NCBI GenBank assembly: GCA_001600095.1 | Contig: BCIX01000004.1 | Span: 1,430,586-1,494,585 of the forward strand | Direction: 5' to 3' | DNA from: Bullera alba | Taxonomy: Eukaryota; Basidiomycota; Tremellomycetes; Tremellales; Bulleraceae | Length of the DNA: 64,000 nucleotides | Shown here: piece by piece, positions 11,429 through 23,550 of the stretch | Numbering within the stretch: position 1 is the first letter of the stretch | Layout of the letters: every line of letters starts with the position of its first letter | Notes under the pieces: generated by a model | Databases searched by the model: none | The model's input: the letters and a program-made list of their open reading frames with translations, nothing else | What the model was told of the DNA's origin: nothing | Position numbers and translations under genes: made by a program

Positions 11429-14400
11429 TCAAAGGTACTTGTTCGACTTGAGCCACTACGTCCGATCAATCAGCACAAGAAACTGTGTGAACACCAGTAG
11501 CTCGTCCGTACTCACCTCCTCGACATCCTTCTGATCCCTCTTGAGCCAATCGGCCGAGGCCTGGATCGAGTCGTAAGCCTGGTGCACGGCGAGTTTACAT
11601 CTCCTGATATCCTTGTCCTTGAAGAAGTCCTTGAACCTCTGCAGATCCTCGTGAGAGGTGAAAGAGGTGAGCGACCCTCTAACAAGGTAGTTGATGCCGC
11701 TGTTCTCGAACCTCTTGTACAGAGCGTCGTAGTGGTCCAAGAAGTAATCGCTGATCTTCCTCCTCGCGGCGTGGTTCGCTCCGAGACCAAAGAAGAAGAT
11801 GTAGTAATCTTGATCTTTGACACTTCCATCTTCGAGCATCTTGAACGTTCGCTCAATGAGCGCCTCGTCCTTGGGCGAGCAGAGGGCGTACATTGCGTCG
11901 ACCTTTGTAGACGGGTTGGCGGGCTTGTTGTAGACGGCCAAGATCTTCTCGTACGCCTTCTCTCCGCCGTATCTCACCGCATTGACAAAGATGGTTCGCT
12001 GCAAGTCGGGTGGGATCTGACTGTCGTCGTTGCTCTCGAGGAATGGCTGGAATCGAGAGTTGAGCTCGTCCAGCACTCCTTGGTCCTTGGCCGAAGCAGC
12101 AGACGAAACAGCCAACGCTCTGAGCTCCTTTGTATCAGGCGAGTCCTCTTCGGCGTGCTCGTAGCCCATCCTCTCGACGACCGGCTTGAACAGCTCCACA
12201 CGGAGCTTGTCGATCGCACCTCGCACTGGCTCGGGCTGCTCCCACCACACTGCCTCGAGCTTGCCGAGAGCGTTGGCGATTTGGGCCCATGGAAGGTTCT
12301 CGGTCTCGACCTGACCAAGTGCTTTGACCAGATTGAGGGATCCACTGGTCTTGCCGTAACCAGCTCGAGCGAGAGTGGTAGCGTCCGAAACGAGACCAAC
12401 CCTGTCCTCGACGGAGAACGACGAGGCAGCTTCTCCGAGCTTCTGCAATCGCTCGGGAGAGTAGTTGACTCTGTAGACACCGACTGTCTCGGCGTTGAGC
12501 TTGAATGAATCCGCTCCATTGAGCTCGTATGTGCTTGATCGGTCGGACAAGATCGCTTTGTGGTCGACCTCCGGCGTGTCTCCCTTGAAAGTCTTAATCT
12601 CCAGGGGAACCCACCAAATGGTCTCGTCTTCCTCCGGTTTCACGTCACCAGTGGCCAGGAATCGGTTCTGGGTGACCTTGATCTTTCCAGCTTCAGACTC
12701 GTCGACAGTGATGACAGGGAAACCAGTCTTCAGGGTCCAGTTGGCCATGACCTTGGCCACATCGATACCGGATGCCTCGGAGATACCCTCCCAGAGGTCT
12801 TTGGTCTGAGCATTGCCGTAAAGGTGCTTCTTGAGGTAGATCGAGACACCTTTGAGGAACTTGTCCTCACCGACAACGCCCATCAGCATTCGTAGAACGG
12901 AAGCACCCTTCGAGTAGCTGATAGCGTCGAAGATCTGGCTGATCTGGTCCTCGTTCGGGCAGTCGACTTCGATTGGGTGACTGCTTCTCTGCGAGTCAAG
13001 AGCCAAGGCGGACGTCAAATGAGTGTTGAGGAACTCCGACCTAGGCTTCCACTCGGGCCAAATTCGGTCCAGGATAACAAGCTCTCCCATCAGAGTTGCG
13101 AAAGCTTCGTTCAACCACAGGTTGTCCCACCACTTCATGGTGACGATATCACCAAACCACATGTGGGCCAGCTCGTGACATTGGACTACGGCGACTCGCT
13201 TCTTGGCGCTCAAAGAGCTCTTCTTCGGGTCGTACAGGTATGCGGTGGTTCGACCAGTGATCAAACCCCAGTTCTCCATGGCTCCGGCATCGAAGTCATG
13301 TGCGACCAAAGTGTCGAGCTTGGGCAAGGCGTAAGGGATGTCGAAGATCTCCTCGTACACTGGTAGAGCCCACTTCTTGATGTCCAAGCCGAATTGAGCT
13401 TGACCAATGGCGTCGGGGGTGGCGAAGATTCGGAGCGGAATGGTTTTCCCGGTCTTGACGGATTTGTGCTCGCTCGAGAGCGAAGCGAACTCTCCGCAAG
13501 CAAAGGCGACAAGGTAGGTAGACATCAACGGAGTTGGTTCAAATTTGGTGATTTTCAGATTCGAGCTCGACGATCCAGCCTCAGTCTTTCCCTCTGTCTT
13601 GCCTTCCGTCTTGGTCTGACCCTCTGTCTTGCCGGCGAGCTCGCTGACTTTGACGGCTGAACCAGTGTATCCAACACCGAGGGTAGAGCCCAGCTCGTAA
13701 GAGTCGGATAGTGCTGACTCGGCAGAAGCGTTGGAAGGCGCTTTCCACGGCTTGGAAGAGACGTCGGGCATGTTGGCGAGAACAGTGAGGTTCTCGGGGG
13801 CAATCATGGAGACGGAGAATTTCGACTTGACCAATGGCTCGTCCCAGCATCTGTCGAAGAGGTTGTCAGCTCGGTATCTGCAATAGGTAGCAAATAGCTG
13901 TGACTTACGGGAAGGCTTTTCGGGCGTCGGTCGCCTCGAATTGCGTCAGCGCATAGCTGAGTTCTAGTCAGTGGACAGCTCAACAAATGCTGGAAGACCA
14001 CCCACATAGGCTTCTTGCCTGTCTTCTCGTCGACGTCACCCTCGGACTTGTAGTATCCGTTCATGCTACCCTCAAGTTCCGCTTCAAATCTGAACCAGGC
14101 CTTGACTCCTTCCTGACCGGCTTTGAGTCCTCCTCCTGGAATGCCCTTGAGATCGACGGTGACTCGTGTCTGCTCGGCATCGTAGGTGAACTTGTCAAGG
14201 CCGATCTGCTGCTTGGTAGACGACTTGAGGTCGACGGAGGTGAGACCCATGTGGGTGATGGAAAGGTTCTTGCCCACGTTGAAAGTGAGGGAAGAGGTCG
14301 ACTCGTTGACTTTGAGGTGAATCAGAGCTTCACCAACGTAGGATGGGGGGTTCGATTGGAGATCCGTCTTGAAGACGAGCTCATAATGCTATAGCCCTTG

Positions 14401-14529
14401 TCAGCATTTGCCTGGAGGGAAACCATGTTGCTCAGCCCTCCAGCGACTCACCTCGGGGTACACATTGGTCGGAAGCCTGGTAGCATCCCCGGGTTTGGTG
14501 GAAGCACCGCCAGCGACTGAATCGGCCAT
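11429..14529 (-). CDS. APE2: M1 family aminopeptidase (Ape2/Aap1/PSA type)
   Basis: Zinc aminopeptidase that trims N-terminal residues from peptides. Starts MADSVAGGASTKPGDATRLP, then NVYPEHYELVFKTDLQSNPP, the usual M1 opening. Substrate-binding GAMENWG and the zinc site HELAHMWFGD (HELAH at 13163-13177, minus strand) with downstream NEAFATLMGE are intact, and the catalytic Tyr region is present. The ERAP1-C-like helical domain follows to a tiny last exon, 11429-11455, that adds WLKSNKYL after KRDQKDVEE, the normal family ending. Introns in the N-terminal part separate GKKPM, YALTQFEATDARKAFP and CWDEPLVKSKFSV. A low-complexity TEGKTEGKTE linker sits in the beta domain. An in-frame Arg-rich extension upstream to 14733 could be a leader, but the CT-rich look suggests 5'-UTR. 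Convergent with the orphan gene, 229 bases apart. Confidence 0.92.
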
Positions 14530-15597
14530 TTCTATACCTCCAAGTGCGTTATGAGAGCAAAGACAGAGTGTTCTTCGACTCGCTTGTTGTCTTCGAGGGA
14601 GAGTAAGATGATTGAAGGAGGAAACAGTGAGAGTCTGAGAGATCGAGAAAGCGTGAGTATGAGACGACCTTGGACAGCAATATCCGCGACGGAAGCCATA
14701 CCGAAAGTGAGGCGATCTCCTATCGAAGTCCACTCACCCTTGTTGTCAACGAACGGAGTAGAGGTGTCTTTGGTGCTTTGCCTACGGATAGAGCTCTTGC
14801 TGCAATTGCTCTACCTAACATAGAATGCGATGGAAGGGGTTGTTCAACTGACTGCCCGTTCTGTATATAGCAACCGCTCGAAGCCTCTCTATGGTTCCAC
14901 ACGTCCACACCTCGCATACCGCTGCCGGATCTAGGATCACAGCCGGTAAGGCGGTCACCCCCGCCACTCAAATTGATCCCGCGTCAGCGTTGGCTCAGCA
15001 AGTTGCCAATTGGCAATCACCCAATCGCCATACATGTACTCCTCGATCGTAAGGCCAGAGAGTCAACGGCCTTGTCTTGCTATCCGCCACACCACCAGCT
15101 CGCATCTTGATCACAGCATACATTTTCTGCCCGTTCCATCGACTAGAGCGGCGAGGTCCGAAAATGCGGAAGAGCGATAGATCCGCAATCTTCGCCGGTT
15201 CCCCTTGACCTTGCCTTGACCCCTTCCATTTCCAACTTCGGTAGCTTGACAGCCAGACACTCGGTTCCACGTCGTATGCTCCGGCAACCTCAAGATCTAC
15301 AGTCTAGTGTCTGCTACGGTCCACGCGGTCAAGCTCCGAAACAGATTGATGCCCTTAATTTGACTCGATGCACCGCCCAACTGGTCCAAATCTAAACGCC
15401 CTGCTGATCAGCTTCGAGTCGAGTCTACATCCACCTCGATTGAAGCCTTATAACTTATAAGTACAGCTGAACCGCGCTCTCACAGATCTCCCAAGACTTC
15501 CAGACCGACAGTCTTTTACATCTTTCATCCCTCGCCACCGTCTCTCTCCCTTTTACTAGACTTACTATTGCGCTTCATCGCTGCTTTCGACAACGAC
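14530..15597. other. Intergenic region upstream of the repeat-bearing gene
   Basis: About 1.07 kb with no recognisable coding exon. The first 250 bases probably hold the promoter and leader of the aminopeptidase on the minus strand. The last 110 bases are strongly pyrimidine-rich, as expected for a plus-strand leader. Confidence 0.5.
15447..15460 (+). promoter_or_regulatory. TATA-like element
   Basis: CTTATAACTTATAA lies about 150 bases before the first candidate exon of the repeat-bearing gene and is followed by a pyrimidine-rich leader. Position and composition fit a core promoter; there is no direct evidence of use. Confidence 0.4.
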
Positions 15598-15642
15598 ATG
15601 TACCTCCGTCATTCCGCAACATCCACCTCGACCTATATGGAG

Positions 15643-17746
15643 GATGGGGAAAGGTGAGTAGCTCAGCTGCTTGCATTGGGTCTTGGAAGACTTTGTTTGA
15701 TTCGATCCTGCGGAAGTGAGACCAAAGGGAGAGATCCGTCTCTCCCTTCGGAGGACGCCCTTCTTTCGCTGAGCATTGCCAGGTAAAGACTTCCTCCATT
15801 CCATCTCGTCAGCGGAAGCCAGCTTCATCTCCTGTAGGCATTGCCAGAGATGGAGCTCGCATCCGCTCGATTCTTGATCTTCATGACAGTACTCCTCGTT
15901 TGTTACGAAGGGAGAGGGTGACACACGACCTGCCGGGTTGCGCTGACTCCCGGTAGACTGCATACAACAACCTCGAGACTTCGGTAGACACTGCGTGATA
16001 ACATTGGAACTCTGGCTCCCAGATAGAACCAACGCAGGTGAGTAGCTCAGCTGCTTGCATTGGGTTCTGGATGCCTAAGCTTGACTCAATCCTGTCGCAA
16101 GTGAGACCAGAGGGGGGGAACCGTCCCCCCCTTCGGAGGACACCCTTCTTTCGCTGAGCATTGCCAGGCGAAGGCTCCTCTATTCCATCTTCGTCAGCGG
16201 AAGCGAGCTTCATCTCCTCTGGGGTGTAGAATGGGGACTCGGATACCGTTCTAGAGTCCCGATTCTTCCCCCCGATCGGCATCGCCAGAGATGGACCTCG
16301 CTTCCGCTCGATCCTTGATCTTCATGACCGGTTCACTTGACTGTTGTGAAGGGAGAGAATGACACACGACCTGCCGGGTTGCGCTGACTCCCGGTAGATG
16401 ACAGATACGCCGGACAGCATCAAGGACGCATCAACCCGTCCGCTATGAAGGTGAGTAGTTCTCTGAGCTGCCTGCTGGGGTTCTTGGGCGTCTTCAGCTT
16501 TGATTCTGCTGCGAGCGGGTCAGGGCCGGCCTACGCCTTCTTCTGGAGGTCAAGCGGCTCTGGCTTGCCGGCATGTCAAGCGTGGTGTTTTCATCCCTCA
16601 TCCAAAGTCAGTGGAAACGCGCTTCAATCTTGAATCAATCTCGGGATGCTGTATCTTGGTGGACGACCTTCCTGCCTTTTGTAACGGGCTCCCCGGTGAG
16701 CATTGTCAGGAACGCGGCGCGCTTCCACTTGATTGTCTGTCTTCCCGACAGAACGATTCTTCGACGAGCACTTGAATTGTCTGCATGTCGGGGCGAGAGA
16801 GATGATGACAAGAGACCTGCCGGGTTGCGCTGACGCCCGGCAGATCAAAGCGATTTACCTATCACTCGACAATTCATCTGGCGGTCGGGGCCTTCCAGCG
16901 GACATTCGACGGTGGCGCTGTTTACCGTGAGTAGTTCTCCATCTGCTTGCTCGAGGTATCAGCGGGCTTCCATCTTGATTCAGTCCCGTCCTAGCTCGAG
17001 GGCAGGGTCCGTTCGACGCGCACGTCGTGGAGTTTCCTCCCAGAAGAGGTGCTTCATGCGTGCCTTCGGATCAACCTGTCCTATCCTGCGGCGCATTGCC
17101 AAGCGAAGTCATCTTTCACATTCATCCAGTCGGTGTTGCCGTGCCCATCGACCCTCGATGTAGCGCGGTTCCACTTGACTTTCGATCTCTCCAGCAGTCT
17201 GTTGAGGAGGGAGAAAGTGACGCACGACCTGCCGGGTTGCGCTGACTCCCGGCAGGTTGCGATCACTTACGACGACGACGGACGGGAGCACGAGCAATTT
17301 CCCCGACAAGCTCATATCACAAAGGCCTACCGTCTCACCCATTCGCCCACCGTCCGCGACTCCGCCTGCCGACTTGTTACACGGAGACATAGCCTGCTTC
17401 GGGGACTTGGTATCGATGTATAAGGTGAGTAGCTTTCCGCGCTATTTGCTGGGGTTTGGAGGACTTTTGCTTGATTCGATCCGTCGAGGGCATGACTTAG
17501 CCTGATCTTCGGAGGGGGCCTTACCCTTCGGACGTGAGGTTGACTCTGTTCTGCGTGCATCGCCAATCGAAGCTTCCATCCCTTCCACGTCTGCGAGCCA
17601 CACTTCATCTGCCAGCGGTTTGGCATCTATAAAGATGGAGCGTTTGCTTCCGCTCGATCCTTGAGCTCTGCTGCAGATCCGTCTGTTGAGGAAGGAGAGG
17701 ATGACAGAAAGACCTGCCGGGTTGCGCTGACGCCTGGCAGATTTAG
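15643..17746 (+). CDS. Hypothetical 133-aa protein interrupted by five introner-like introns
   Basis: Removing the five repeats as GT-AG introns leaves exons 15643-15653, 15957-16037, 16398-16450, 16844-16926, 17256-17424 and 17741-17746. Exons 2-5 (386 nt) stay open in one consistent frame across three junctions of differing phase (1, 0 and 2) and reach a stop two bases into the codon after the last intron's ATT. Sample segments are DFGRHCVITLELWLP, AGQHQGRINPSAMK, LSLDNSSGGRGLPADIRRW and GDIACFGDLVSMYK. No family is recognised. The start is the weak point: the first ATG of the leader (15598) is in another frame and would stop early in exon 2, so an ATG at 15643 was chosen. The locus could instead be a non-coding transcript or a decaying gene. 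Introns here are 303-393 nt, five to seven times longer than others in the window. Confidence 0.4.
15654..15956 (+). repeat. Introner-like element copy 1 (303 nt)
   Basis: Begins GTGAGTAGCTCAGCTGCTTG and ends CCCGGTAG. Invariant 21-nt core at 15927-15947. Contains a short central inverted repeat (CATCTC near 15826 and GAGATG near 15848). Close to copy 2 in its first 60 bases and in the GCTTCCGCTCGAT-type segment after the hairpin. Confidence 0.8.
16038..16397 (+). repeat. Introner-like element copy 2 (360 nt)
   Basis: Begins GTGAGTAGCTCAGCTGCTTG like copy 1 and ends CCCGGTAG. Core at 16368-16388. Its central CATCTC/GAGATG arms enclose a larger loop of about 60 bases with a second GGGACTC/GAGTCCC pair, suggesting an inserted inner hairpin. 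Copies 1 and 2 are the closest pair within the tandem array. Confidence 0.8.
16451..16843 (+). repeat. Introner-like element copy 3 (393 nt)
   Basis: Begins GTGAGTAGTTCTCTGAGCTG and ends CCCGGCAG. Core at 16814-16834. The longest and most diverged member; the ends match the family but the middle has its own sequence. The 3' stem (CTGCCGGG with CCCGGCAG) is perfect. Confidence 0.75.
16927..17255 (+). repeat. Introner-like element copy 4 (329 nt)
   Basis: Begins GTGAGTAGTTCTCCATCTGC and ends CCCGGCAG. Core at 17226-17246. Preceded internally by GAGGAGGGAGAAAGTGACGC, matching the purine-rich GGGAGAG..TGAC block found just before the core in the other copies. Confidence 0.78.
17425..17740 (+). 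repeat. Introner-like element copy 5 (316 nt)
   Basis: Begins GTGAGTAGCTTTCCGCG and ends CCTGGCAG. Core at 17711-17731. Very similar over its whole length to copy 6 located 2.3 kb away, sharing for example TTGATTCGATCCGTCGAGGG and GGACGTGAGGTTGACTCTGT. The 3' stem keeps pairing through a G-U wobble. Confidence 0.8.
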
Positions 17747-19157
17747 AATTCCTTCTAGCAGCCTTGCCCAATCGTGCTACCAGCGGCGGAGATGTATTTT
17801 GTAGTAGCGTTTGCGAACGTGCAATGTGTAGATCGTGTATCTTCATCCCTCGTTCTCTCATACTCATAGTGCAATGATGAATCAATACATCATGAGACTT
17901 CATGGCCATGATCTATCACACTTTTGATAAGTTGGAAAGCTTGTGTGCCCATCGCCAGCTCAACTATTGTCCGAGTCCACCGCATCTTCATCTATCTACC
18001 TCCTTGCGAGCAGCGACACCGACCGGTGCTCTCCGGTTCTAGTGGAGGTACCCGGGCAAGAGCTGCATACAGGATAACGGGCTCGTGGCCTGTGGTAGAT
18101 TCGACGACGTGGCACTTGGGCGGTGCTGGCCTGTGGCTTGTGTGATGAGATTCGACTCGACCGACTACCGCCGAGCGGGGGAGCGATATTCCCGTCTATA
18201 ATAGAACCCGGAGATCAGTCCAGACAGGTCCAGACCAGTAGATCAGTCGATCAGGACAGATCGAGACTCGTGGTAGCGGGCCTAGGGAACTGGAGGCAGC
18301 TATAGTCATGCACGTGGAGCCAAAGCCGTCGAACCTTTGCTTGGCAGCTGACGGTGTTCTGTGAGCTGCACTGGTCCTGCCTTGTCCTGCGAATCACATG
18401 CTTTCTACGAGCTCGAGTAGAAACTCAAGACTGCTCAAGATAGACTCCATTCAGCTTGGCGCACTCTGCTGTGCTTAAATGACGGTCGACATTAAAACCC
18501 TAGGCTGTTTCAATTTGGTCGACCTCGTCTGACTCGACACTCCAGCAGACTCCAGCTGACGCTGTATGATGTATCCGCAAGAGCGGAGCATGTCTTCAGG
18601 GTTTGCGTCTGCACCGGCTCGGATCTACAGTGCCTGGCCGGAGTATATAAGGCCAGGTCCGATCAGAGAAGCGCGGGCACAAGGTGACTACCTTCTCCTC
18701 GAACTGGGTGAGTACGATGTGAAACGATAGGAGACGACTGCATCGCCCAGATGGACCAGACCTAAATCGTAGGCCTGCTGACTGAGCTTAACTGACTGGT
18801 TGACTGGACTGATGCGCGAATTCGAGTCGATTTCGTACTCATGCGAATGCGATGGGACTGATATAAGATCAAACGGAACACCCTCGTTCAGTCCCCTCGG
18901 AGCTCAACACATACACATCAACATTCGAGTCATCTGTCCTACCGACCGACACTCGCAGTCTCTCCGAAACACCACATCACACGTCCATTAGTAGGTCCTT
19001 ATCGAGATCAAGAGCGAATCGTACTTACGAAGTTACGGTACTCAGAATCGATCCGGCGAAACCAACTCAACAATCCCCAGCCGATCCACCGTACTCTCGC
19101 GACTAGCTTCCTTCCCCTCGAACTACCGCCCTATACAGATCCACATCCCCTCTCGAC
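17747..19157. other. 1.4-kb gene-poor region with a TATA-like site
   Basis: No coding exon recognised. A good TATA box (GTATATAAGG) lies at about 18647-18656 and a second weaker one (TGATATAAGA) near 18859, upstream of the gag-like gene. A run of CACATC/CTCTCC-rich sequence from about 18900 to 19157 looks like a leader. Several short GATCAG/GACTGA tracts (18210-18250, 18770-18815) give it a low-complexity look. No long terminal repeats were found by eye. Confidence 0.45.
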
Positions 19158-20015
19158 ATGTCGGGCCAATCGGCTGAAATCCAATTCTTGCTCGCCCAGC
19201 AGGCGGCGACTCAAGAGCTTGTCGCTAGGATGGCCAACATCATCCAGACGTGCCGCTGCCACGACACTCACCATCGTGGACACGATCGAACGGAGGCTGC
19301 AACCCAGCTGGACTACAACCGTAGCGATGTCGCCCTGATCCATTCCGATGTGCAAGTCAGCCCAGATGAGAGATTCGCCCACATCCATCCCATCATCTAT
19401 CGCCGTGCCGTCGATGGTGAACTCGCCCTTCATCACTTCTGCGCTCTGCTGTCAACCCAGCACCTACTCGCCTACAATCTACCCGATTCTTTGAGAAGCG
19501 ACCCCGATCTCTTCGCCTCTGTCTCCACGGCCGACCCGAGAGTACTGCCACCAAACTTCAAGGTTTTCCATGTAGCGTGGATGGTGTTAATCGAGATCTA
19601 CACAACCGGTCCTGCCAACACATGGGGAGTCGCCTCCCTTCAAGCGCTAAATGCGTATTTGTGGTGGTTGTCCCAAGCGGAATCCAAGTTTGATTGGTTA
19701 TCTTTGATGTCCCATTTTGCCCAGGTTGTCGCCCCACGTCTGAAGAACACGAACCCCGTGGACTTTGTGAAGTGGATCCACAGCCTAGCATTATGCGAGC
19801 CTCACCACATTCTCCAGCCGTTACGGCTCGACGTCGCCTTCTACAGGGTCAAAGCCTCGTCGGACACACATCAAGTGGTATGCCGAGGATACCAAAACGG
19901 CACATGTCGCATCACCACTTGTAACCGACCTCACCAATGCGATAAATGCTTGGGTTTCCACCCATCGGAGGAATGTCCGGATAACGACGGCTCGAATCGC
20001 GAGGAATTGAGGTGA
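19158..20015 (+). CDS. Gag-like protein with C-terminal Cys/His zinc knuckles (285 aa), orphan retroelement-type gene
   Basis: Starts MSGQSAEIQFLLAQQAATQE after a CT-rich leader. An N-terminal glutamine-rich helix is followed by a mid region with W- and L-rich helices (VFHVAWMVLIEIYTTGPANT, ALNAYLWWLSQAESKFDWL) resembling nucleocapsid-type proteins. The C-terminus has clustered Cys/His, VCRGYQNGTCRITTCNRPHQ then CDKCLGFHPSEECP, close to the C-x5-6-C-x4-5-C-x3-H pattern plus C-x2-C-x4-H-x4-C seen in gag-like proteins of basidiomycete retroelements. No protease, reverse transcriptase, integrase or recombinase follows and no LTR was seen. It may be a domesticated or orphan gag. Twenty-odd codons past its stop comes introner-like copy 6, which would be a 3'-UTR intron. 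Confidence 0.6.
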   Translation: MSGQSAEIQFLLAQQAATQELVARMANIIQTCRCHDTHHRGHDRTEAATQLDYNRSDVALIHSDVQVSPDERFAHIHPIIYRRAVDGELALHHFCALLSTQHLLAYNLPDSLRSDPDLFASVSTADPRVLPPNFKVFHVAWMVLIEIYTTGPANTWGVASLQALNAYLWWLSQAESKFDWLSLMSHFAQVVAPRLKNTNPVDFVKWIHSLALCEPHHILQPLRLDVAFYRVKASSDTHQVVCRGYQNGTCRITTCNRPHQCDKCLGFHPSEECPDNDGSNREELR

Positions 20016-20055
20016 TGAGGATCGGATGCTCGAAGGAGAAAAGGGTTAGACTAAG

Positions 20056-20374
20056 GTGAGTAGCTGCTTCGGCTTCTTACTGGGGGTTTTGGAGGGCTTC
20101 CATCTTGATTCGATCCGTCGAGGGCATGACTTAACCTGATCTTCGGAGGGGTCTTACCTTCCGGACGTGAGGTTGACTCTGTTCTACGTGCATTGACAAG
20201 CGAAGATCTCCATTACCTCTTCCGTGTCTGCGGATGACGCTTCATCTCTGCCATCCAATCACTGGCAGAGATGAGGTGTACTTCCGCTAGACTTTCGAGC
20301 TCCCAAACAGATTCGTCTGTCGAAGAGGGAGAGAGTGACGCAAAGACCTGCCGGGTTGCGCTGACGCCCGGTAG
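20056..20374 (+). repeat. Introner-like element copy 6 (319 nt, dispersed)
   Basis: Begins GTGAGTAGCTGCTTCGGC and ends CCCGGTAG, with the core at 20345-20365. Nearly collinear with copy 5. Carries the best central hairpin of the family: TCATCTCTGCCA (20242-20253) pairs perfectly with TGGCAGAGATGA (20263-20274) around a 9-base loop. Lies 41 bases after the stop of the gag-like gene in the same orientation, flanked by AAG on the 5' side. Confidence 0.8.
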
Positions 20375-20587
20375 TTCTACCCAGTGCCCCAGTGCCTGCC
20401 ACCGCCTCGACCTCACATCGTTCCGTAGACGCATTGCCACACGTACCGATATTGCAACTTCCCCTCATTAATCAACCAGGTGTTGAACACCGCCGACTCG
20501 CTTCGCTGCCTCGTACATGTTGTAAAAGCCGGTGTCATGCTATGTAGACTCGTTGTATGTAAGACTGTATCTGAGCACTGCAGAAGG

Positions 20588-23550
20588 TTAGAACTCCTCA
20601 ATCTCCTCTTCCTCACTGACACCCCCCTCTTCCTCGTCTCTCTGTTCCGTCTCGTCCCATCCCTCGTTGTCCACGAGACCAAGACTATCTTCCCCCGCCG
20701 ACTCGTGTTCCATGCCTTGTTCCTCCTGCTCGTCTCCGTCGCGTAATTCATCCCCCCGTCGCCCAGCGTACGCGTTATAAGGCGGCATCGAGAGTGGTTT
20801 GAGTGAGGATGGCAGCAGTGTTCCTGCGGAGGGTGAATCAGCGCCAGACCTCGTTCCACATCAACACGTCGGAGCAACGGACGACTCACGTCCAGATAAA
20901 CCTTGAATCTTCACCATCATCGGCAGGAGCTCCGTCGCCATTGTCAACTTGGTAGCAACGCCTCCCCACGCGTTGTAGCCATCATCCTCCTCCGCGTTCA
21001 GGTCTCGCTCTGCCAGATGGACTGAATGGTTCACTCCTCGTTTGGCCAAGTATCCCGCTGCAGTATCCAATAGGATGGTGTTGGAACGCTCGTCTCGGTA
21101 AGCTTCGAAGAATTGTGGTTTGATGACTTTCTGATTCTTCCTATGACAGTATCAGTCATCGCTCTTCCCACCTGTATCGATCGTCCCACCTGGGCACTGG
21201 CGATGGCAACGCCATCAATGAACCTCTCACAGATATGTGCAAAGCATAAGCGATCGCCTGTGGGCTTGCTTGCCACTGCAGGGGTCATACTCAGCGACAC
21301 TCTCTCTTCATGACAGCTAGCGGCTCACGAAATCCTCGTCCGTCCTCATCACGTCCGCAGAACACAGGTCGTCGAAAGCGAAAGACACTTGATCGATGTC
21401 CGAGCAAAAGCTGGGTAGTGACTGCTGGATCCAAAGGCTGAAGGAGGAGGCATCGACGGGAATGGTTGGCAAGAAGTTCTTCGATGTCGTGTCAGCGCGC
21501 CTTCACTGACTAGTAGCTAGGGGGATCTCCCCAACCCACTCACCTCCATTTGCACCATGGACTTGCGGCGCTCAAAGCTCGCCAGGTGCGAAGGTAGAGG
21601 ATCGGCATCTGGCAGAGCTTCGACCACCGCCACTCTTTCGGCATCTTCGTCCTCCATTTTAGGGTCGCCCAGCCCTGTCGTTGATCAGCGCAGACAAAGT
21701 ATATACGACGACACCTACGCTTGTTATAGAAGACTTTACCCAGAGCATGGAATAAGTTCAGGCTTTGCTCGCGTCTTGTGACTGCATCCAGGCTACTTTA
21801 AGATCAGTATTGGCCCCAAGATGAGCTTGATCTGACTCACACAGCCCTCAGGTCTTGACTGACGTCCAGCTTGGCGCCCTTTCCACCCCTGCTCCCGAGT
21901 CCCTTCTTCTTCCCAGTCGCAACTTCCTCCTTACGCTTGCGCTTATTGCTTGTACCCTTGAGCCCGCCAGCACACAGCAGCTGCAAGGAGTTGATCGCTG
22001 AGCGTAAGTCCCCATTGGCAGTCATGGCTATCAACTGAACGGCGGATCTTGGAGGAGGTGTTTGGGGTTTTAGGATTGCCATGTCCAACACCCTAGTCAA
22101 AGCCTTCGTCAAGAAAGTCGGTGCGATGGGCGGGAAGCTACAATGTCAAGGCCAGTATCAGCTCGTACTGTCCTCCCGACGAAGTTGAGCTGGATGGCTT
22201 TCCTTAGCTCCTGACACCAAGGCCCATCTTTGACCTCTCTACCCAACAGCTCCAGAGCTCCTTCCCTTCCACCTCTCTCCCTGTCCATCCAGCTCTCTTC
22301 AGCCCGGCCGCCAGATCCCGCTTCAGAGTGAATGACGATCAGCGGACAGGAGGTCGATGAGTAATTCTGGCAGAATTGGGAAAGCATCGAATGGAAAGCT
22401 TCGCGAGTTGGTAGATGAGATATATTGGGCAAGGCGGTGAGAAGAAGTATTCGCGGTCTGGAAGATTGGCTTGAGCTTTGGGACGAAGACCCAGGATCCG
22501 ACATGGACATCTCGAGCGGTCTGTAAGAGTTCCTGGACAGGAACGAGGAAAGCTTGCTCATGGCAGACTCGCGCTCTACGAGCATGTCAGCTGGGCTGGG
22601 AGGCTGAGGAGGAAGGATTCATACCTATACCGACGCCGATGGTCCGTTCTTCGACACCTTCCCCCCATTCCACCAGGTCGATGCCCATCTCTTTGGCAAG
22701 AACACGAACGGTGGTCGCCTTACCGCCACCAGCGGGCCCGGTGAGCAAGAGCATCCGCTACAGCAGGCAACTTAGCTGGTTGCACATAAGTGGGGCTAAG
22801 CTCACCTACCCTGTACTTTCGTATTCGATCTCTGCTTGTCTTGGTCATGCCACCTGGAGGGCCAATGTAGTCCTGAGGATGACCATGTAGCGCCTCATGC
22901 ATCCAAGTCTTCACCTTCGCTATCCTGGCGTTTCCAGGTGCGAGCTCAGCCTACGGACCAGTCAGTTTACGGTCCGCCCTCGATACTTCGTCAGACTGAC
23001 CTCTGTCACGGGAGCATAGCATTCAGACCACATATTGTACCTCGAACTTGAGACTAGTGAAGCTGGTCAGCTATCGCAAAGATAGATTGGCAAGTCAGGA
23101 GCTCTGCTATCACACAACTCACATTGAGTCGACGAGCTCGGAGCTTCTTCTTCCTCGTCGCTGTCGATCAGAAGTACCGGGTCTTCCTCTCTTCCTTTGC
23201 CCTTGAGCGAGTTAGCGGTGCTCCGAGAGGCTGACGACGAGCTGGAACTCTTCGACGTGCTTGAGACCGTTCTCTTCCCCTGTATGCCCGGTCCGGGCGG
23301 AGGCATCCGTTTTGCATCTTCCACCGAGTTGCTTGATCTCGTCGCAGATGGTCTGATCGGGGCTACGGGAAAGGCGGAGAAGTTGAGGGTTGATTGGAAC
23401 TATTTGACAGTCAGCTTCACTAACTCGTACATTATGTGGTTAGCTGAGACTTACCGAGCTCAGGCTGCCCATCTTCTTCACACCGTTGACAGAGCGAGCC
23501 AGGCTCGCCTTTTCGGACGAGCCATTGGACGTCTTGCTCTTTGGCGCCAT
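20588..23550 (-). CDS. RAD17: RAD17-like checkpoint clamp-loader subunit
   Basis: RAD17 with RFC2-5 loads the 9-1-1 clamp on damaged DNA. Many exons. The start MAPKSKTSNGSSEKASLARS leads to a serine-rich stretch and an acidic segment (DPVLLIDSDEEEE), then WSECYAPVTEAELAPGNARI and KVKTWMHEALHG, the conserved RAD17 opening. The P-loop reads LLLTGPAGGGKATTVRVLAK with EWGEG after it, and NGDLRSAINSLQLL is the conserved lid motif. The C-terminus is acidic and ends EEEEIEEF. Two oddities: the P-loop has Ala after Lys, where Thr or Ser is usual, and the Walker B site reads ILLLTALPNI where other RAD17 have an acidic pair before LPN. The junction near 22140-22150, where IQLNF should continue to PPIAPTFLTK, could not be spliced in frame by eye. 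RAD17 orthology is well supported; catalytic competence is not. Confidence 0.8.

Follow-up and report, generated by a model that had tools for sequence, protein, structure and literature searches.

A family of intron-like elements with a covarying fold, linked to small-protein genes, in Bullera alba

Introduction

How does a family of introns that resemble one another from donor to acceptor come about, and could the excised RNA itself be what is kept? The question is raised by six intron-like elements, e1 to e6, in a 64,000-nucleotide stretch of Bullera alba DNA (C4:1430586-1494585), hereafter called the window. An earlier note, made from the letters of the window, had read these elements as introner-like, that is, as introns that multiply as units. 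Here, we followed the family through the window and through the genome (19.4 Mb searched, 7 contigs). In their letters, the copies have common exact ends, splice signals, a covarying five-domain fold and a link to genes for small proteins; what is new here is the conserved fold, which takes in both splice sites. Their multiplication is best explained by gene duplication together with local duplication of introns and exons, not by transposition of an intron into unrelated genes. We tentatively read them as paralogous structured introns of the U2 type, multiplied by gene and tandem duplication, with the excised RNA as the putative functional product. No prior description of this intron family was recognised in the literature searched, most subscription journals lying outside it.

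Results

Splice signals and boundaries

All six window elements lie on the plus strand, and the starts and the lengths of 303-393 nucleotides (nt) that the earlier note gave were recovered, together with the common opening GTGAGTAG and the closing (C/T)GG(C/T)AG (6/6). The opening word occurs 12 times in the window, compared with 1.86 ± 1.30 expected; 0/100 shuffles reach 12, and six of the 12 occurrences are the elements. Each element ends in a 3' hairpin with the stem CTGCCGGG / CC(C/T)GG(C/T)AG and the loop TTGCGCTGAC(G/T). The spacers of the five-copy locus, put at 53-169 nt by the note, measure 81, 53, 83 and 169 nt. Its estimate that the elements are five to seven times as long as other introns is about right: 55 crude intron-like candidates from a frame-based scan of the window have a median of 70 nt, with 29/55 at most 75 nt, the scan being bounded at ~520 nt and its long candidates probably mostly false.

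The intron-like signals hold across the 21 non-degraded copies of the genome, among which the donor GTRAGT and the branch-point motif CTGAC are present in 21/21 and YAG in 20/21. AG stands just before the donor in 11/21 copies against a background of 7% (binomial tail 4e-8), and in 8/15 once the further copies of both C4 arrays are left out. In 12 copies with independent flanks, identity before the donor is 0.20-0.33 at bases -15 to -4 and then 1.0, 0.55 and 0.44 over the final three exon bases, the pattern expected of a donor site; past the acceptor it is 0.18-0.44, except for 0.59 at the second base. In these 12 copies and in the window array, likeness is confined between the two splice sites; in the array at C4:1950087-1953055 the exons are alike too. 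The neighbouring aminopeptidase gene has an intron-like gap with the identical signals GTGAGT, TGCTGAC and TAG. With their exact start, CTGAC and YAG end, the elements look like complete U2-type introns, and they are presumably removed from transcripts.

A common fold

The fold energy is below that of dinucleotide shuffles in 20/21 copies (z-scores from -2.9 to -9.1, 30 shuffles each). The 14 long copies (443-484 nt) have a common five-domain fold, consisting of a 5' stem (nt 1-10 paired to nt 20-29), a pair of long arms, one further hairpin and, at the 3' end, a terminal hairpin. The donor is part of the 5' stem, and the last 8 nt, including the acceptor, close the terminal hairpin, whose loop holds the branch-point motif. 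For these 14 copies, the RNAalifold energy is -62.3 compared with -18.5 ± 3.8 in 100 column shuffles, and 91.6% of cells pair compared with 83.7 ± 0.5% in shuffled alignments and 40-46% when the partners are slid by 1-3 columns. Changes on both sides were found in 46/90 pairs (26.4 ± 2.7 when shuffled) and in 110 cells (41.7 ± 4.7; the maximum in 500 shuffles was 59). The six window elements have a similar layout with weaker covariation (19/80 pairs).

Across 21 copies, the 5' stem has 24 cells changed on both sides, compared with 10.3 ± 3.1 in shuffles, of which 0/500 have as many. At stem positions 1-6, off-consensus cells number 5/126 on the donor strand and 30/126 on the partner strand, while at positions 7-10 both strands vary similarly (35/84 and 42/84). 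Since the donor letters are steadier than their partners, something besides the stem seems to hold the donor, as for a splice site. G-U pairs are frequent in the 5' and 3' stems, which suggests that the stems suit RNA better than a DNA hairpin.

Copies in the genome and how they multiplied

The 3' cassette pattern was found at 21 places genome-wide with at most 2 mismatches, and a looser form with at most 3 mismatches gave 22 places compared with 2 for a reversed control; copies that have lost the cassette could escape this count. Each of the 21 non-degraded copies has exactly one GTRAGT (seventh base not T) 280-600 nt before its end. The 22nd copy is degraded, and its 3' hairpin, read by inspection, is still complementary with stem letters changed on both sides. 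A stem of 8 bp that ends in YAG and has CTRAY in its loop occurs at 20 distinct places in the window and 11 further loci (~163 kb, both strands), all of them family members. No exact match was found in IMG/VR contigs, and in a bacterial and archaeal collection an 18-mer had 16 exact matches, about twice the uniform-base estimate of 7.

Grouped by transcription-like unit, the 22 copies fall in 11 loci, with arrays of five, three and five copies. In 7/11 loci the element follows, on the same strand, a small open reading frame (ORF) of one paralogous family, characterised by a coiled coil and an EVEQLC-type motif; the distance from stop to donor is 168-386 nt in all seven. An element downstream of an ORF would lie in the 3' untranslated part of the transcript; the other elements are at loci where no ORF was recognised. 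The earlier note had proposed to search the genome for hits inside genes; among the 22 copies, none was found splitting recognisable coding sequence.

In the array at C4:1950087-1953055, identity is 80-94% between adjacent introns and 62-88% between exons, with a shuffled level of 63-66%. Likeness of exons as well as introns points to duplication of intron-exon units, the lowest exon identity being at the shuffled level. Adjacent elements of the window array are 71-87% identical and its spacers 54-71%, within or below the shuffled range of 57-76%. Thus the description of the spacers as unrelated stands for the window and fails for the other array, where neighbouring exons were duplicated too; the earlier note had itself named homology past the splice sites as counting against its reading. 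The two closest paralogues share 88.8% identity in the element, 83.0% in their coding sequence and 69.1% over the stretch from stop to element. Introners often, though not always, bear target-site duplications or terminal inverted repeats. Abutting direct repeats of at least 3 nt were found at none of the 21 non-degraded copies, and no inverted repeat joins both ends of an element in the window.

Table 1. Coordinates of elements, spacers, ORFs and genome copies. Entries without a contig are in window positions.
Feature	Position	Strand	Remarks
Element e1, intron-like	15654..15956	+	303 nt; fold z -3.5
Element e2, intron-like	16038..16397	+	360 nt; fold z -5.7
Element e3, intron-like	16451..16843	+	393 nt; fold z -2.9
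Element e4, intron-like	16927..17255	+	329 nt; fold z -4.0
Element e5, intron-like	17425..17740	+	316 nt; fold z -0.6
Element e6, intron-like	20056..20374	+	319 nt; fold z -6.9 (30 shuffles), -7.3 (100 shuffles)
Spacer e1/e2, exon-like	15957..16037	+	81 nt; likeness to other spacers not above shuffled level
Spacer e2/e3, exon-like	16398..16450	+	53 nt
Spacer e3/e4, exon-like	16844..16926	+	83 nt
Spacer e4/e5, exon-like	17256..17424	+	169 nt
Zinc-finger ORF	19158..20012	+	284 codons + stop; C-terminal CCCH/CCHC; ends 43 nt before e6
Small-protein ORF	C4:1612559-1613362		
Small-protein ORF	C4:1953419-1954033	minus	
Small-protein ORF	C4:1948881-1949447	minus	
Small-protein ORF	C4:1945386-1946111	minus	
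Small-protein ORF	C6:1052235-1052480		frame interrupted; intact relative exists
Small-protein ORF	C6:1074116-1074673	minus	
Small-protein ORF	C6:1206759-1207322	minus	
Six copies	window, C4:1430586-1494585	+	
One copy	C4:1613676-1614151		
Nine copies	C4, between 1943253 and 1953055	minus	
One copy	C6:1047756-1048198		
One copy, the 22nd	C6:1048293-1048920	+	degraded, longer; neighbour of C6:1047756-1048198; starts GTGAGTC
One copy	C6:1052670-1053152		
One copy	C6:1073408-1073872		
One copy	C6:1206129-1206590		
One copy	C2:2365940-2366376		

Neighbouring genes

The motif (E/D)(M/L/V/I)E(Q/D/E)(L/M/I)C was found in seven ORFs of the window and ten element loci, a count biased by the choice of loci that bear elements. 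In genome-wide searches with the family proteins, only the seven loci match below E 0.1. A PPxY word is present in 5/7 of the small proteins and absent from two related C6 genes, and no Pfam family reaches the cut-off in the 5/7 scanned. Four of the genes have metagenome relatives that are 78-90% identical, and the ratio of nonsynonymous to synonymous substitution rates (dN/dS) is ~0.33 between the two closest paralogues; because of this, the small proteins look maintained. A structure model of the small protein, with two helices and disorder (mean predicted local distance difference test score, pLDDT, of 59), fits many roles. It is worth mentioning that an ORF inside the C4 cluster (C4:1946759-1947427, minus) carries the word VEDLC; among the element loci it does not resemble the family at a threshold of E 0.05, and no element was found immediately behind it.

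Four of the 11 loci lie outside the small-protein family. Two of them, the e1-e5 locus and the locus at C6:1047756, have no recognised ORF. The zinc-finger ORF precedes e6, and a second ORF with a CCCH/CCHC pattern precedes the C2:2365940-2366376 element, with 11 nt from stop to element. A third CCCH/CCHC ORF (C2:339704-340168, minus) is related to the window ORF; the 1.3 kb that follow it contain no GTRAGT and gave no profile match.

Other genes of the window are eukaryotic, with SPT6, THOC2, M1 aminopeptidase and eIF4E domains. The e1-e5 locus stands head to head with the M1 aminopeptidase gene (11459-14733, minus), and the intergenic promoter region (14733-15654) may be common to both. Near two element loci on C6 there are three adjacent ORFs with a predicted membrane-like stretch (C6:1050026-1050484, 1053675-1054349 and 1055282-1056055), two of which are weakly alike to the middle one (30% over 102 amino acids and 22% over 94), a local duplicated family.

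Other candidates

Several other kinds of element were considered and rejected. No Rfam family matched the window at gathering score, nor 15400-20600 at E up to 1. Group II introns have ends of the form GUGYG...AY; no group I or group II intron was matched by Rfam, with the window being the part scanned, and the copies end in AG. In HAC1-type introns, both splice sites are inside hairpin loops, whereas those of the elements are at the bases of stems. The A-box and B-box are the motif words behind the idea of a short interspersed nuclear element (SINE) derived from transfer RNA; the A-box- and B-box-like words of e1 and e2 are in conserved stems, and no T-run terminator was seen by eye. Helitrons end in CTRR, which is absent. 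For a Gag-like reading of the 19158-20012 ORF, neither a Pfam match with E up to 1 nor a named homologue was found; the structure model of its product (mean pLDDT of 39) is too poor for a fold search.

Discussion

We rank first the reading in which the excised RNA is functional, because the whole intron is conserved, its pairing extends to both ends, its arrays hold up to five copies and one array lacks a recognised protein. The intron is better conserved than the exons and shows structural covariation, as expected of an intron-encoded functional RNA. We infer that the product is the excised full-length intron. The intron would be spliced out whole to give a stable RNA, and the terminal hairpins, from nt 1 and to the last nt, would shield its ends. 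An array, with as many as five copies, would raise the RNA dose, as in the host genes of small nucleolar RNAs (snoRNAs), which are intron-encoded, and the small coiled-coil protein is a putative partner of the excised RNA. A more specific proposal, that the exact excised intron is complexed with the co-transcribed small coiled-coil protein as a new class of structured RNA with dose-raising arrays, seems to us unlikely; if true, RNA and protein would be the two components of one gene family and would be duplicated together as a unit.

The main rival is a regulated intron, in which the fold hides the splice sites and a bound factor, perhaps the encoded protein, sets retention; located after the stop, such an intron would govern mRNA export or decay, as in autoregulated yeast ribosomal protein genes. 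The donor and acceptor in stems and the branch-point motif in a loop are consistent with this. In yeast, splicing is controlled by structures to which the protein of the same gene binds (PMC12350175, PMC13232506, PMC12311795, PMC4937481), and in Cryptococcus retention is more frequent for introns of untranslated regions than for those of ORFs (PMC5006051). However, a five-copy array without a recognised ORF (e1-e5) makes little sense as a protein switch, and we consider regulation somewhat unlikely as the explanation. Canonical yeast splice sites tend toward structure depletion (PMC12350175), which makes the family unusual under either the excised-RNA or the regulated reading.

Part of the earlier note is supported by these results; its introner interpretation is not. 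Self-copying introns that land in new genes would explain the likeness bounded by splice sites in copies with independent flanks, the window spacers that are not alike, and the 4/11 loci outside the small-protein family, yet the 22 copies occupy just 11 loci, of which seven are paralogous, and no copy was found to split recognisable coding sequence; abutting direct repeats are absent at 21/21 copies, and at C4:1950087-1953055 exons are duplicated along with introns. We regard introners as very improbable here. It is also quite unlikely, though less so, that the elements are not introns at all, being instead a structured 3' untranslated RNA element or a retained old mobile-gene element with merely splice-site-like ends, for example a site to which the zinc-finger or coiled-coil protein encoded nearby would bind. 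Both ends are paired and two neighbouring ORFs have CCCH/CCHC patterns, as such an element might have; but donor, branch-point motif, YAG and preceding AG coincide at the exact ends, and the signals match those of the aminopeptidase-gene gap.

Some observations weigh against the excised-RNA reading. One array copy (C4:1950728-1951192, minus) ends in TAA, its usual acceptor AG lost and its fold kept, and e5 folds no better than shuffled sequence (z -0.6). Taken alone, the 3' stem is nearly invariant and shows no covariation, and the 5' stem pairs with changes on both sides are not above chance (4 vs 3.3; 214/500 shuffles). The shuffles behind the covariation counts take no account of relatedness, and alignment and structure come from one sequence set. 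Paired splice sites could hinder splicing. The joined spacers are open slightly longer than chance in two arrays (64/2000 and 52/2000 shuffles), and those of the third are not unusually open (993/2000 shuffles as long); short coding exons in the spacers are unlikely.

The family of 22 copies offers natural replicates for two questions: how the spliceosome removes an intron with base-paired ends, and whether selection can act on an entire intron as an RNA product. The case further illustrates a pitfall, since likeness from donor to acceptor alone, with host genes unchecked, would count as introners. The introner survey of Gozashti et al. drops introns of paralogous genes as false positives (PMC9860276). 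This host-gene filter would in principle set aside the seven paralogous loci; its protein cut-off is E 1e-20, and several paralogues here are more distant (PMC9860276).

Introners (PMC9860276) and fungal introner-like elements (PMC8469720) are likewise intron families alike from donor to acceptor, and the latter have predicted stable folds, as here (PMC8469720). However, introners sit in many non-paralogous genes, whereas one gene family accounts for 7/11 of our loci and no copy was found within recognisable coding sequence. Introners of Amoebophrya are structured repeated introns of another kind (PMC7789003). In fast-evolving paralogues of the Plasmodium var type, introns are alike through gene duplication while exons diverge, as here (PMC9860276); unlike these, our family has a covarying fold with both splice sites, a position after the stop and tandem arrays. 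The sister stwintrons of Hypoxylaceae likewise number a few dozen in a single fungal genome and are similar to one another and foldable (PMC8469720), but they are nested, have terminal inverted repeats and take new positions in unrelated genes (PMC8469720), while the elements described here have separate domains and those of the window have no end-to-end inverted repeat.

Autoregulated introns of yeast ribosomal protein genes resemble the family in that structure may control splicing (PMC13232506, PMC12311795); in contrast to them, it is multicopy, lies after the stop and has both splice sites in stems. The snoRNA host genes, structured yeast introns (PMC4937481) and human full-length excised intron (FLEXI) RNAs (PMC11460701) combine conserved structured introns with poorly conserved exons, as here, and in places several structured introns per transcript. 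Compared with these, the present family has no Rfam match in the window, its accumulating RNA is a predicted one, and its conserved unit is the whole intron, to the last base.

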